Shown here: in pieces, positions 1 through 29,001 of the stretch
How the letters are laid out: every line of letters begins with the position of its first letter
Position numbering within the stretch: the first letter of the stretch is position 1
Source of the DNA: Bacteroidota bacterium
GTDB lineage: Bacteria; Bacteroidota; Bacteroidia; Bacteroidales; PUMT01
Assembly: GCA_003554865.1 (NCBI GenBank)
Contig: PWHJ01000208.1
Span: forward strand, 1 to 35,049
Reading direction: 5' to 3'
DNA: 35,049 nucleotides
The notes under the pieces: model-generated
What the model was told of the DNA's origin: nothing
The model's database searches: none
The model's input: the letters and a program-made list of their open reading frames with translations, nothing else
Translations under genes and position numbers: made by a program

Positions 1-26
1 AAAGCTTCAATAAACAATAAATAAAA

Positions 27-59
27 TTGTTAGCTAAAAATTAAAAAAAATTATCTTTG
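27..59 (+). promoter_or_regulatory. Putative promoter of the peptidyl-prolyl isomerase gene
   Basis: A TTG at 27-29 is followed after 22 nt by TATCTTTG at 52-59, which fits the Bacteroidota -7 element TAnnTTTG. The gene start is about 49 nt downstream. The spacing is slightly long, so the -33 half is the weaker part of the call. Confidence 0.5.
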
Positions 60-107
60 CATTACAGGCAGGAAAAAAGTTACTAATTACAAATTGCAAA
101 AGATAAA

Positions 108-740
108 ATGATACAAAAAATGCAGGCTTTGATGCTGCTTTTTATAATTAGTACATTATCGCTTAATTCACAGGAAAAAATCCCTGACAGTGAGCACGAT
201 TATCTTGTAACACTTGAAACCGCTTACGGCAACATGATGTTGTTGCTTTTCGATGAGACCCCCAGGCACAAGGAAAATTTTATAAAGCTTGCCAAAGCAG
301 GTGTATTTGACGGAAACACCTTCCACCGGGTTATAGAAAATTTTATGATCCAGTCAGGCGACCCCTCCACCAGCAATAAAACCCGCACATGGGAAAACGA
401 TATTATTCCACCCCATGTTCCTGCTGAAATAGACACTACATTCAGTCACAAAAGAGGAAGCGTAGGTGCTGCCAGGTACGGGGGGGAACGCAATCCCGAA
501 AAAAACTCCAGTCCGACCCAGTTCTACATAGTACAACATGACAGAGCAGCGCCGCACCTTGACGGGGAGTATACCATATTTGGACAGGTCATGAGCGGAC
601 TTGAGGTAATTGACAGCATTGCCGGAAAACCCACAGACGACAGAGATCGTCCGCTGGAGGATGTAAGAATCAAAAATGCAGAGGTTGAGGAGGTAAAAAG
701 AGAAGATGTGGAGAAATTCTACAATTTCAGTTACAATTAA
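108..740 (+). CDS. Secreted cyclophilin-type peptidyl-prolyl cis-trans isomerase
   Basis: This 210-residue protein is a single cyclophilin domain (about residues 30-190) behind an N-terminal hydrophobic segment (about residues 5-20) that looks like a signal peptide, so it probably works in the periplasm or outside the cell. Family hallmarks are visible: the FHRVIENFMIQSGDP catalytic stretch, a central GSVGAARYG segment followed by SSPTQFYIV, and LDGEYTIFGQV near the end. It should catalyse proline isomerisation during folding of exported proteins. A second Met at residue 5 is an alternative start. It is followed 74 nt later by a ferredoxin gene on the same strand, but nothing shows a functional link. 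The family assignment is firm; the location is inferred. Confidence 0.92.
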   Translation: MIQKMQALMLLFIISTLSLNSQEKIPDSEHDYLVTLETAYGNMMLLLFDETPRHKENFIKLAKAGVFDGNTFHRVIENFMIQSGDPSTSNKTRTWENDIIPPHVPAEIDTTFSHKRGSVGAARYGGERNPEKNSSPTQFYIVQHDRAAPHLDGEYTIFGQVMSGLEVIDSIAGKPTDDRDRPLEDVRIKNAEVEEVKREDVEKFYNFSYN

Positions 741-23408: not shown

Positions 23409-24139
23409 TTACGCCTTATGCTTTCTTCCCGTGAACAACCCCGCAATCCCGCCCAGGAAAAGCTGTGAGGTGACTTCCCTGAAGCCTGCCTCCCTCAACA
23501 GCTCTTTCAGGGCATCACGATCATAAAAGTACCTTGCAGAATGAGCAAGATATTTGTAAGCGCCTTTATGACCTGAAAGTACTCCACCTACAGGAACTGT
23601 AGCGTATCTGAGATAGAAATAAAATAAAGACCTTACTACCGGGTTTGGCGGCTGACTGGTTTCTATAATAACCAGGCGACCGCCGGGCTTCAGCACCCTG
23701 AGGATTTCAGACAGAAACCTGTCACGGTCTGGATTGTGAAAAGTAAGGTTGCGAAACGCAAAGGCAATACCCACCAAATCAAAATGATCAGAAGGAAAAG
23801 GCATGTATGCCGCATCACCATTTATGAATTCAATTTCAAGTTTTTTCCCCCGGCTTTCTTTCTTGCAAGCTCCAGCATCGGGTAACTGTAATCCAATGCT
23901 GTTAGACTGGTGTTTTCAGGGGCCATCCGGGCAAGGTGTATTGAAAGGTCGCCGGTGCCGCAACAAAGGTCAAGCACCTTATCCGGACTGTTCTTCAGGC
24001 AGCCTGCAGCCGCCCTTTTCCTCCATATCTGATCAAACCCGAATGTGAGTATCCTGTTGAGAAGATCATAAGAGGGGGGTACGGCAGTAAACATTTTTTG
24101 CAACGGTCTCCCTTCCTCAGCTTTATTATCCATAGTCAT
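23409..24139 (-). pseudogene. menG: menG/ubiE-type methyltransferase, split by a -1 frameshift
   Basis: Together the two halves make a complete class I methyltransferase that adds the last methyl group in menaquinone (or ubiquinone) synthesis. The upstream half (start at 24139, MTMDNKAEEG) holds the family motif FTAVPPSYDLLNRILTFG and the SAM loop VLDLCCGTGDLSIHL, and then stops after AGGKN. The downstream half resumes in the -1 frame as LEIEFINGDAAYMPFPSDHFDLV, then AFAFRNLTF and LRVLKPGGRLVIIE, as in intact family members. The switch lies at GGGGGAAAAAAC, whose last seven bases (AAAAAAC, 23846-23840 on the - strand) are in the exact phase of a slippery A_AAA_AAC. A sequencing or assembly indel in this homopolymer, a real inactivating mutation, and programmed frameshifting are all possible. 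Confidence 0.85.
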
Positions 24140-24148
24140 TTTTATATA

Positions 24149-24282
24149 AACCCCCATCAGCCTTTGGCAGACAAAATAAGATGAACAAACATGGGGGTCC
24201 ATGCGACCAAAAGAGATGAACTTAATTGACATACTATAATAACTTATTGAAAATTAGCTTAATTAACTTTGTTTGTACGCAT
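24149..24282 (+). repeat. Dispersed intergenic repeat, copy B (full)
   Basis: The head (24149-24200) begins AACCCCCATCAGCCTTTGG, contains AGACAAAATAAGATGAACAA and closes with ATGGGGGT, which pairs perfectly with ACCCCCAT at 24150-24157 (8 bp, 33-nt loop). After a variable middle, the shared tail (from TTATTGAAAATTAGCTTAAT to TTTGTACGCATGAA) follows. The repeat aligns along its whole length with the reverse complement of 27681-27820. It lies just upstream of menG, in the opposite direction. Confidence 0.75.
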
Positions 24283-24469: not shown

Positions 24470-24694
24470 TCAAAGATATATTGAAACAGCAAGGATTAGA
24501 TGAAGTGTGGCCACGGAAATTGTAATATAGGCGAGTGTTTTATGATACTTTACATGAATTATGACAATACGCCTCCTTGTTAAAAACATCGTAGTAGCGG
24601 TTGCAAGGAGAAACACAAAAGTGATAATCCCAAAATAACCTGCCACCGGCAAGCCCCAAATCATATAATAACCTATATTCTGTATCCACTCCAT
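24470..24694 (-). CDS. Small two-helix membrane protein with His-x13-His, partner of the DOMON lipoprotein
   Basis: I know no name for this 74-residue protein. It has two membrane helices (about 11-38 and 52-73) joined by a basic turn (TRRRIVIIHVKYHK). H51 and H65 are 14 residues apart on the second helix, and H47 lies just before. In cytochrome b and ferric-reductase type proteins His residues with this spacing on one helix bind two stacked b-type hemes. Here one chain gives only half of a four-helix bundle, so a dimer would be needed. It starts 22 nt after the DOMON lipoprotein stop, on the same strand, so the two are likely cotranscribed. Function is inferred only. Confidence 0.7.
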   Translation of the reverse strand: MEWIQNIGYYMIWGLPVAGYFGIITFVFLLATATTMFLTRRRIVIIHVKYHKTLAYITISVATLHLILAVSIYL

Positions 24695-24716
24695 AATTCA
24701 CTAACAAATAAAATTT

Positions 24717-25292
24717 TTAAAGCTCCACTTCAACTTTTGTTCGCTGGGTATGACGCTGAAAAAAATTATCTGAACTATTATGATAACTTAAAATAACAGT
24801 ATGTGTCTCTCCTTTTCTTAGATCATAACGGGATTCTTCATCCAGTGGAATAACAAATTCTGTACGTGAAAGTTCATCATCTCTCTCTCCCTTTGAATTT
24901 TTTATATAAGTTTCTTCAATTTTATCGTGAGAGGTTTGCCCTGTACCATAATGCTCCTCAATTAAGAAATTTTCATTTTCAAAGCCTGCTATTATAATCT
25001 TGGCATCAGCCATTCTTCTGGTTGGGTCAAAGCCTATTGCCAGCCAACCACTGCCGGGACTTTCCAAAACTATATTCAATTCCTGTTCATCCTGAGAAAA
25101 CTCCCAGAAAAGTTCCATATCAATATCAGAAATAAAATGGTTAGTATACACCAATCCGTCAGTCAACTCACTTTCAAGTGATGCATTCCGATCAACTTTT
25201 ACATCCTCATTTTCCACTTCCCCGCAACCATTTATAAGGGAAAAAACCAAAAACAAGGATAATACTAAGCTAAAACTTTTTTTATATATCAT
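24717..25292 (-). CDS. DOMON-domain lipoprotein, probably heme b binding
   Basis: This 191-residue protein has a lipoprotein signal (hydrophobic residues 8-19, C23 in LINGCGEV) followed by a DOMON domain (about 47-191). The core GWLAIGFDPTRRMADAKIIIAG is typical, and M94 lies where DOMON cytochromes use Met as a heme ligand. H171 or H181 in SYHNSSDNFFQRHTQR is a candidate for the second ligand. It should be held at a membrane outside the cytoplasm and carry electrons. The next gene encodes a two-helix His-rich membrane protein, which parallels the fused DOMON-cytochrome b561 proteins. The heme role is inferred from family features, not shown. Confidence 0.82.
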   Translation of the reverse strand: MIYKKSFSLVLSLFLVFSLINGCGEVENEDVKVDRNASLESELTDGLVYTNHFISDIDMELFWEFSQDEQELNIVLESPGSGWLAIGFDPTRRMADAKIIIAGFENENFLIEEHYGTGQTSHDKIEETYIKNSKGERDDELSRTEFVIPLDEESRYDLRKGETHTVILSYHNSSDNFFQRHTQRTKVEVEL

Positions 25293-25430: not shown

Positions 25431-25781
25431 CTACTTCTCTACATTAAATCTTTCAATTTCCCTCTCTAAAAAGAAACTGATCACCGTCCTGATGGCCACG
25501 ATGCTCGCCAGGATGGCGATTTCGGTAAAAGTGGGATGCATGACCGTGGCAATAATATCTGCTGCTATCAAAAACTCCAGTGCCATTAACAAATAAGATG
25601 CAAACAGATGGCGAACCGATTCCCTTTCCCTGTAAACAGACTTTTTTTTTAGTCTTTTAAACTCCAGCTTCAAGAGCCTGATCACTGTTAATATCACACC
25701 CCATACTATAACTGCCACACCAATAGTGCCTATGACGATATACAGAAAATCAAAGATTTCGGTTAACTTTAGTTCAATCAT
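25431..25781 (-). CDS. DUF1622-family membrane protein
   Basis: This 116-residue protein has about three hydrophobic segments (roughly 11-35, 60-78 and 83-105), and the middle reads SYLLMALEFLIAADIIATVMHPT, typical of DUF1622. Its C-terminus is FFLEREIERFN. The family is widespread and uncharacterised. It lies alone on the - strand, 140 nt upstream of the DOMON gene, with no obvious operon partner. Its neighbours on both sides are small membrane proteins, which hints at envelope or stress functions, but this is only context. Confidence 0.8.
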   Translation of the reverse strand: MIELKLTEIFDFLYIVIGTIGVAVIVWGVILTVIRLLKLEFKRLKKKSVYRERESVRHLFASYLLMALEFLIAADIIATVMHPTFTEIAILASIVAIRTVISFFLEREIERFNVEK

Positions 25782-25943: not shown

Positions 25944-26186
25944 TTATCCTCTGAAAATCAAGTGAAAAAGGAAGAGGATAACTACTGCGCCGATTGCCCC
26001 GGTAAGGATCGCACCAAGCCAGCCTCCCAAAAAAATTCCAATTTTTCCAAGCAGCCAGTATCCCACAAAACCGCCGGCTATCCCGACAATAATGTTACCA
26101 ACCAATCCATAACCGCGTCCCCTGAAGACAACGCTCCCGAGCCAGCCGGCCAGAGCACCGATAAGAATTGTCACAACTATTTCCAT
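25944..26186 (-). CDS. GlsB/YeaQ/YmgE family stress membrane protein
   Basis: This 80-residue protein is very rich in Gly and hydrophobic residues, with three short membrane helices and the family features LIGALAGWLGS near the N-terminus and GNIIVGIAGGFVGYWL in the middle. The family (transglycosylase-associated proteins) is linked to envelope and general stress responses; the molecular role is unknown. It is a monocistronic gene. The 161 nt downstream to the DUF1622 gene contain nothing recognised. Confidence 0.9.
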   Translation of the reverse strand: MEIVVTILIGALAGWLGSVVFRGRGYGLVGNIIVGIAGGFVGYWLLGKIGIFLGGWLGAILTGAIGAVVILFLFHLIFRG

Positions 26187-26682: not shown

Positions 26683-27657
26683 TTATAAGGTATTTTTGTC
26701 TATTTCTTCAAAGATCTGCATCAGATCCTGATATTCCATATCCTTGTTGTCACCGGTCTTAAAGCCGTCAATTAAACAATTGTTTACAGGGTCCCAAATA
26801 AAACAATCTTCATATAGTCCAAAATCTTTTCCCCAAACCATTATTGATAAAATAAAAGGAGCATAATAGTGAATAATGCGGAAGGTTATTGGCAATGTGA
26901 GTCTTTTAATCAAGACTTGTTTTGAGGTTTCATTAAGTTCATATACCCCCTCTTTCAGCTTTCTGAACTTTTCAGAATTAGAGTGATCTGATTCAGATAT
27001 TAAGTTTTCAATATTGTAAATATTTATTATATAGGAAATATTATCAGCAGGACACTCTGATTCATTTTTAATTGAAACTTCAATTTCCAGTTCATTATCA
27101 AGTGCATTTCTAAATTTATATAATTCGGTATTTGTCTTAATCAAAGGCTTTTGCCTGTTTAAAAAAAGTGATTGGACTATCCCGTGAGGAGCGGGTTTAG
27201 CCTGTTCATCAACTCTTATATAGTACCTGCCTTCATTTAAGCACTGATGTGGGGGATTTTTACTTTGAGGAACTTCTATAATAAAATAATTACCAATATC
27301 AGTAAATATTTCCTGTATCTTAATAGTTTGAGGTAAAGGAGCAATATTTGCCGAAAGCCTCTGAATTATCCAGTTTTTATTTCTGAATGATGACGGAACC
27401 GGCTCTCCGGCACATACTCTTTTATGGGTTTTATTATTCACCTTTTTCTTCGTCTCTCTCGGTGAACCGATTATCAAGATCCCGCCATCAGTATTCAAAA
27501 AGGCACATATTTCACTGTAAATTTCATCAATTTTAACTTCTCCGCTCTTAAATTCCAGACTTGAAGATTCCTCCCTTTCTTCCTTGAAAAAATTGAAAAA
27601 ATCTTCTTTGGTAATTTCTTCTAACGGCTTCCCAAATATTTTACTTGTCAGCTCCAT
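26683..27657 (-). CDS. AlbA_2 / Schlafen-type ATP-binding domain protein
   Basis: This 324-residue protein has an N-terminal AlbA_2 (Schlafen AAA_4-like) domain, about 25-165. Its hallmarks are LEFKSG (residues 34-39) and FLNTDGGILIIG (53-64), followed by EGRYYIRVDEQAKPAP near residue 155. These domains occur in transcription regulators, defence proteins and RNA-processing proteins. The C-terminal half (about 175-324) is beta-rich and not recognised; it lacks the helicase or HTH domains of larger relatives. A copy of the dispersed repeat sits directly upstream and may supply the promoter. Confidence 0.82.
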   Translation of the reverse strand: MELTSKIFGKPLEEITKEDFFNFFKEEREESSSLEFKSGEVKIDEIYSEICAFLNTDGGILIIGSPRETKKKVNNKTHKRVCAGEPVPSSFRNKNWIIQRLSANIAPLPQTIKIQEIFTDIGNYFIIEVPQSKNPPHQCLNEGRYYIRVDEQAKPAPHGIVQSLFLNRQKPLIKTNTELYKFRNALDNELEIEVSIKNESECPADNISYIINIYNIENLISESDHSNSEKFRKLKEGVYELNETSKQVLIKRLTLPITFRIIHYYAPFILSIMVWGKDFGLYEDCFIWDPVNNCLIDGFKTGDNKDMEYQDLMQIFEEIDKNTL

Positions 27658-27831: not shown

Positions 27832-29001
27832 TTAAGTTATTGTTTTATGTTTTTTATATATTTCGTTAGCCAGTTTATCAATAGAATTGAAGTCATCCTC
27901 TTTTGGATATCCTTTTACAAGAACGGGATCTATCACTTCTGCTTTAATGTTAGGAATCATTTCTGCAACTTTTTCAATTACGTTGCTACCCCATCCGTAA
28001 GAAGCTATTACCGAGGCGAATTTCGTTTTTGGTTTAAGTAAATTAGCTAATTTTGCAGCATATGTAACCGCCGGATGTGGTTCTCCCAGTACTGTTGGTG
28101 TTCCAATGACTATGGTTGCTGCATCTACAAGGGTAATAGCAAGTTTCCCTATGTCTGTTACAGTCAGATCAAATTTATAGACCTTAACTCCTTTTTCTTC
28201 AAGCTCATCAACAAGATGTTGCACCATCTTTTCAACACTGCCATGCATTGATATGTATGGTATTACAACAATATTCTTAACATTGTCAGAAATCCAATCT
28301 TTATATGCATTTATTATGAATTCAGGTTTATCGTACATCGGACCATGACTTGGTGCGATAATATCTATATCGTACTCATCAAATTTGGAAATATTCTTTT
28401 TAATAATTTTTTTAAAAGGCATCATTATTTCTGCATAATACCTTTTAGCAGCTTCATATACCTCGCATTCGTCGGTAGCATACATATCTGTAGTTGCTAA
28501 ATGTGACCCGAACAAATCACAGGTAAAAAGGATTTTATCTTCTTTTAAATAAGCTAACATTGTTTCCGGCCAGTGTACCCAGGGATAATATATGAATTTT
28601 AAAGTCTTATTACCTAATGATAATTCCTCACCATCTTCAACAGTTACAATTTTTTCTTCAGGTACGGATAAATGATCTATGATCATATCTTTTCCTTTAG
28701 TAGATGTTAATACTTTAGCATTTGGGTATTTTTCCAAAACATCAGGTATAGCACCTGAATGATCTTGCTCTGAATGAAATGAGATAATAAAATCGAGTTT
28801 CTCCACATTCTTTAAATGATCAAATAAAACATTGACCATTGATGGGTCGACCGTATCAAGCAATGCCGTTTTTTCACTTCCGTTAATCAAATATGCATTA
28901 TAGCTTGTGCCGTCAGGTAAAGGAATAAGTGAATCAAATAACCGCCTGTTCCAGTCTGTGGCGTTCAGTAAAAATACATTTTCTTTTATTTTTCTTGACA
29001 T
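27832..29001 (-). CDS. fprA: Flavodiiron protein (FprA family A-type flavoprotein)
   Basis: This 389-residue protein joins a metallo-beta-lactamase-like diiron domain (1-245) to a flavodoxin-like FMN domain (250-389). The diiron ligands appear as H76, E78, D80 and H81 in FHSEQDHSG, then a His in YPWVHWPETM, an Asp in TCDLFGSH and a His in PSHGP. The FMN-binding start is YISMHGSVEKM. Family members reduce oxygen to water or nitric oxide to nitrous oxide in anaerobes, taking electrons from rubredoxin or a reductase. No such donor is adjacent; the small ferredoxin at 815 is far away. A GGAGG-like site lies 6 nt before the start. Strong A+T codon use is shared with its neighbours. Confidence 0.93.
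   Translation of the reverse strand: MSRKIKENVFLLNATDWNRRLFDSLIPLPDGTSYNAYLINGSEKTALLDTVDPSMVNVLFDHLKNVEKLDFIISFHSEQDHSGAIPDVLEKYPNAKVLTSTKGKDMIIDHLSVPEEKIVTVEDGEELSLGNKTLKFIYYPWVHWPETMLAYLKEDKILFTCDLFGSHLATTDMYATDECEVYEAAKRYYAEIMMPFKKIIKKNISKFDEYDIDIIAPSHGPMYDKPEFIINAYKDWISDNVKNIVVIPYISMHGSVEKMVQHLVDELEEKGVKVYKFDLTVTDIGKLAITLVDAATIVIGTPTVLGEPHPAVTYAAKLANLLKPKTKFASVIASYGWGSNVIEKVAEMIPNIKAEVIDPVLVKGYPKEDDFNSIDKLANEIYKKHKTIT

Follow-up and report, generated by a model that had tools for sequence, protein, structure and literature searches.

The window, that is the whole stretch of 35,049 nucleotides that was analysed, carries a gene for a DOMON lipoprotein followed by a gene for a membrane protein of only two helices which, judged by profile alignment, resembles one half of the ferric-reductase core (TM2, basic loop and TM3). 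We consider it about 70% probable that the small protein is a homodimeric two-heme half-ferric-reductase that passes electrons to interchangeable extracytoplasmic partners, and that it forms with the DOMON protein a minimal transmembrane electron-transfer pair.

Both genes lie on the minus strand, the DOMON lipoprotein gene (191 aa) at 24717..25292 and the two-helix gene (74 aa) at 24470..24694, and they are separated by a 22-nt intergenic gap (24695..24716), as the earlier note had read them. A second genome of the genus holds the same pair with a gap of identical length, where the DOMON protein is 72% and the small protein 82% identical to that of the window. The dN/dS values against this sister genome were 0.17 for the DOMON gene and 0.13 for the small gene, and both are under purifying selection. 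The unchanged gap in the sister genome, the low dN/dS and the outcome of the HMM-free scan given below demonstrate that the pair is more than chance. Neither gene was found in a third genome of the genus, and none of the other ∼150 relatives had a DOMON match above the cut-off. A Halanaerobiia genome also carries the pair, and the identities to the window proteins, 82% for the small protein and 65% for the DOMON, suggest that both genes were transferred together. As for the surroundings, a UbiE/MenG-type methyltransferase is found just downstream of the small gene in two ORFs of different frames (23409-24232, minus strand), which is a frameshift or an assembly error. Upstream of the pair are four minus-strand genes (25431-25781, 25944-26186, 26683-27657 and 27832-29001) for a DUF1622 membrane protein, a Transgly_assoc protein, a Schlafen/AlbA_2 protein and a probable flavodiiron protein, the last assigned by eye; the gene upstream of the pair in the sister genome is a different one.

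The lipoprotein has a lipobox-like INGC and matched the Pfam DOMON model (PF03351) at 50.6 bits, above the gathering cut-off of 32.7. Its AlphaFold2 model (pLDDT 92) was used in a fold search, which retrieved the cytochrome domains of pyranose and cellobiose dehydrogenase (PDH and CDH) at Z 13.3-14.2, with an rmsd of 2.7-3.0 Å over 149-152 residues, and ethylbenzene dehydrogenase gamma at Z 12.3; carbohydrate-binding modules reached Z 7.8, well below the cytochrome matches. A sequence-profile search of the PDB found nothing, whereas the fold search did match. The predicted fold of the lipoprotein is that of the cellobiose dehydrogenase cytochrome, a CDH-cytochrome-like β-sandwich. Residues M94 (codon 25011..25013, minus strand), H122 and H181 (codon 24750..24752, minus strand) were invariant in 42 DOMON sequences, many of which were fetched by a DNA pattern that itself required M94; the DOMONs reached via the small protein also retain this residue. 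Aligning residues 31..191 of the DOMON with 1..173 of 1d7b places M94 near Met65 and H181 near His163, an equivalence taken from the aligned ranges alone; Met65 and His163 are the heme ligands of the 1d7b cytochrome. M94 and H181 are therefore read as the probable ligands of a putative DOMON heme. The earlier note had named M94 together with either H171 or H181; M94 and H181 stood, and H171 fell, being missing from three loci (L102, L110 and L142). Other DOMON genes of the phylum occur mostly in other contexts, either in T9SS-tailed proteins or in a set of MarR, DOMON and small secreted protein.

The two-helix protein has histidines at positions 47, 51 and 65, the last two of which are spaced 14 apart, and the presence of H51-x13-H65 on its second helix was borne out from the sequence. 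AlphaFold2 predicted helices at residues 2-9, 17-40 and 48-73 with a mean pLDDT of 96.6. No Pfam or NCBIfam model was reached at cut-off by the 74-residue protein. Iterated profile searches started from it recovered relatives of which most are two-helix proteins of 56-91 aa, distributed over the host's order, Halanaerobiia (12 of 59 genomes), Spirochaetia (14 of 178, after the removal of one false genome), the WOR-3 phylum (14 of 120) and Acetothermia; in a sample of 395 genomes from the host's phylum the host was the sole match. The T9SS-type sorting tails present in this sample make Bacteroidota the probable phylum. Long ORFs of another kind (L220, L221) were excluded, most of the weak matches that the single sequence gave within the order were RnfA-like chance hits, and a search of viral contigs gave nothing.

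An alignment of 52 members displayed only three invariant columns, G22, H51 (codon 24542..24544, minus strand) and H65 (codon 24500..24502, minus strand), with a constant spacing of 14 residues between the histidines. The invariance of H51 and H65, which the earlier note had put forward as a check, held in these 52 homologues, and all three residues were kept in 38 of 38 members after filtering at 80% identity; some ascertainment bias is contained in these counts, as the search profile itself includes the histidines. H47 was considered as a third conserved histidine and is not conserved. Set against this bias are the strong profile matches, which span the whole protein, and an HMM-free scan of 613 kb. 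The scan turned up 40 small two-TM ORFs; 11 of these had H-x13-H on the last helix, six belonging to this family and five to the DUF4405 type.

The resemblance to ferric reductases was seen in several comparisons. Ferric_reduct (PF01794) was by far the commonest Pfam match, found in 20 of the 52 members at E up to 0.01 (best E 1.3e-5, below cut-off), and the gathering cut-off of 28 bits was not reached by any member (L066 21.5 bits; window protein 11.6 bits). When the family profile was run against ten ferric-reductase-type proteins, a small set, it aligned to TM2-loop-TM3, H51 and H65 falling on the two histidines of the heme-ligating H-x13-H (E 6e-7 to 4e-5), and in one of the proteins also to the second half (TM4-TM5). 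An hhalign comparison of the family with the ferric reductase domain (FRD) gave P 1.2e-4 and a probability of 55%. In 80 DOMON loci, the best non-family profile match was a six-TM FRD-like protein adjoining a DOMON gene (L141, Desulfuromonadaceae); it was not selected for, and its four histidines align with those of ferric reductases. When the hairpin was used as the query of a structure search, no FRD was among the matches, a result that is uninformative for two helices.

The charge pattern of the family points in the same direction, as the H-x13-H helix follows a basic loop, as it does in the FRD. The loop between the helices has a mean net charge of +4.9 and both ends are near zero, and two members (L230 and L231) have a signal-peptide-like segment at the start. 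From the basic loop and these signal peptides we infer that both termini are outside, with H51 towards the inner and H65 towards the outer side, which is the orientation that TM2-TM3 of the FRD has in NOX proteins. Small residues occupy positions 55, 58 and 62 on the histidine face; the other conserved TM2 residues were not significantly directed towards this face (shuffle fraction 0.19).

The neighbourhoods of the family showed more than one kind of partner. Among the 38 non-redundant members, a DOMON gene was located within 300 nt of nine, a desulfoferrodoxin-like secreted protein was encoded beside 15 and a cytochrome b5 beside one, while about 13 had no recognised partner; the constant DOMON neighbour envisaged at the outset was not borne out. 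In the DOMON pairs the two genes may share a strand or lie on opposite ones, so that co-transcription alone does not account for their proximity. Within Halanaerobiia the DOMON-type small protein was present in seven genomes and a DOMON in 12, and the four shared genomes (Fisher p 0.026) hold the four best DOMON scores. The other three of the seven had no DOMON match at E 1e-4, and the pairing in this class is therefore common but not obligatory.

For the desulfoferrodoxin-like neighbours, 19 of 23 matched Desulfoferrodox at E 0.1; two histidines and the cysteine that are iron ligands in superoxide reductase (SOR) were invariant, and one or both of the other histidine ligands were missing. Most of these SOR-like proteins (L190 1125-1487, minus strand; L191; L201-L205; L222-L229) present AxA-HPP or a similar motif at the signal-peptide end, from which the mature protein may begin with histidine, as in histidine-brace copper proteins. 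Five WOR-3 genomes hold the small gene, an SOR-like gene and a DOMON gene together, and the two of these loci that were read beyond this point continue with another DOMON gene and a cupredoxin-like one. The resulting run (L110 365-3571 and L142 1020-4218, both minus strand) encodes the two-helix protein, an SOR-like secreted protein, a possible outer-membrane protein, two DOMON lipoproteins and a cupredoxin-like protein, and has the look of a complete redox chain outside the cytoplasm. In one Spirochaetia member the neighbour, recognised by eye, is a secreted protein with a cytochrome b5 domain (L215 1498-2125, minus strand). DOMON clusters of another composition were seen in Desulfobacterota and SAR324 (L077, L084, L086, L087, L092, L093, L103, L127 and L137), with a multi-TM protein of ∼141 aa bearing HPLHPxxTHI, a protein of ∼300 aa with about two TM segments and a many-TM protein of ∼540 aa which, by eye, looks like a heme-copper oxidase subunit.

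In the proposed mechanism, two chains of the small protein would form a parallel homodimer in which an inner heme b is held by H51 of both chains and an outer heme b by H65 of both, restoring the four-histidine core which in FRD proteins is contained in a single chain. On the inner side the dimer would be reduced, probably by menaquinol or a cytoplasmic reductant, and the electrons would move over both hemes to the putative DOMON heme (M94/H181) outside and then to an acceptor. The small protein would act as a general wire and not as a DOMON-specific part, a suggestion drawn from the relatives in which the membrane half is accompanied by a desulfoferrodoxin-like protein or, in one case, by a cytochrome b5 domain. 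The homodimer model is favoured by the invariant histidines and their FRD alignment, the loop charge, the DOMON fold, the redox-type neighbours and the precedent of FezC. Against it we counted the unreached Ferric_reduct cut-off, the hhalign probability of 55%, the roughly one third of members that lack a recognised partner and the three Halanaerobiia genomes without a DOMON, as well as the TM2 conservation that is not significantly on the histidine face and the hairpin structure search that returned no FRD.

Other explanations of the small protein were weighed against the homodimer. It might bind one heme only, or be joined to another membrane cytochrome subunit encoded elsewhere; this is conceivable given that the FRD set carries four histidines on two different helices of one chain, whereas the small family has two invariant histidines on one helix, so that another partner helix could complete the site. 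We nevertheless regard it as unlikely. The pairs seen have no conserved neighbouring gene for a second membrane subunit, a search of the host genome for a full Ferric_reduct match at E 1e-5 came back empty, and FezC provides a precedent for a homodimer (PMC11334425). The absence of that full match in the host also bears on the idea that the small gene is what remains of a decayed full-length ferric reductase, to which its coverage of only half of the FRD core would lend itself. Short intact ORFs at 52 loci of several phyla, dN/dS values of 0.04-0.17 and the conserved 22-nt spacing to the DOMON gene leave this reading a negligible probability, and we consider it ruled out by the conservation data.

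It is quite improbable that the protein belongs to the DUF4405/FezC cytochromes and does not constitute a separate half-FRD family. Two helices, H-x13-H and a DOMON neighbourhood are held in common, and one of the 52 members matches PF14358 (DUF4405) at E 0.006; however, the window protein has no such match, and the profile comparison with a set of DUF4405 proteins other than FezC (P 0.0032, probability 10%) was weaker than that with the FRD. The charge is also opposite, with a basic loop in the family and basic ends in the small DUF4405 examples. That the two histidines bind no heme at all, forming a structural, metal-binding or regulatory pair, could be argued from the members that have no redox neighbour, but is very improbable, given histidines that are invariant at the exact spacing of the FRD heme ligands and aligned on them, and recognised neighbours that are redox-type domains. 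The homodimeric two-heme half thus remains the preferred reading. We further entertain, with considerable doubt, that a stand-alone, self-dimerising two-heme half with interchangeable partners may resemble the ancestral unit that was duplicated and fused into full ferric reductases.

Purified preparations of FezC and of a DUF4405 protein contained bound heme b, and a homodimer model was given for FezC (PMC11334425). In Fermentibacteria and Cloacimonadota, single-domain DUF4405-type proteins encoded near DOMON genes form another two-helix family with H-x13-H, in which the ends and not the loop are basic (L090 3841-4083, minus; L091 2769-3008, plus; L112 408-653, plus; L120 4211-4468, minus; L147 7633-7941, minus), and from their position the combination of a two-helix cytochrome with a DOMON may have arisen twice. 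The earlier note had called the split arrangement new; the separate DOMON gene and minimal membrane gene stand, whereas newness was too strong a word in view of the FezC homodimer and the DUF4405 two-helix proteins near DOMON genes. In the open-access literature on bacterial DOMON operons, on SOR with membrane cytochromes and on two-helix homodimers, no description of the pair was found.

If the preferred reading is true, the family would count among the smallest transmembrane two-heme cytochromes, spread over several lineages of anaerobes and not captured by the domain libraries that were searched, and it would be a source of electrons for secreted proteins of the DOMON and desulfoferrodoxin-like kinds. 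It would also make the origin of ferric reductases by duplication of a two-helix unit testable, and a length of 74 residues brings synthesis, spectroscopy and structure determination within reach.

Compared with known systems, the SOR-like neighbours, which belong to the relatives and not to the window, share with desulfoferrodoxin/superoxide reductase the two histidines and the cysteine of the iron site, and differ from it in being secreted and in the absence of one to two other histidine ligands. The DOMON lipoprotein is like the cytochrome domains of cellobiose and pyranose dehydrogenases and ethylbenzene dehydrogenase gamma in its fold (Z 12.3-14.2) and probably in the CDH-type Met/His positions, and unlike them is a stand-alone bacterial lipoprotein with ∼10% sequence identity. 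With the ferric reductase domain (PF01794; YedZ/MsrQ, bFRE, NOX), the two-helix family has in common the hairpin of TM2, basic loop and TM3 and the H-x13-H in which both histidines are aligned; however, it has two helices and two histidines per chain in place of about six helices and four histidines, carries no dehydrogenase domain and stays under the Pfam cut-off. FezC and the DUF4405 cytochromes (PF14358) are membrane b-type cytochromes, as the present family would be, and the two groups are separated by Pfam, by the profile comparison and by the opposite charge pattern of the small DUF4405 examples. Among eukaryotes, Naegleria and oomycetes are reported to have fusions of DOMON with FRD (PMC3591440). 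In these, as in DOMON-cytochrome b561 fusions, a DOMON domain is supplied by a transmembrane cytochrome, as it would be in the pair described here; the pair, in the window and in the other cases seen, differs from such fusions in consisting of two separate genes and in the half size of its membrane part.
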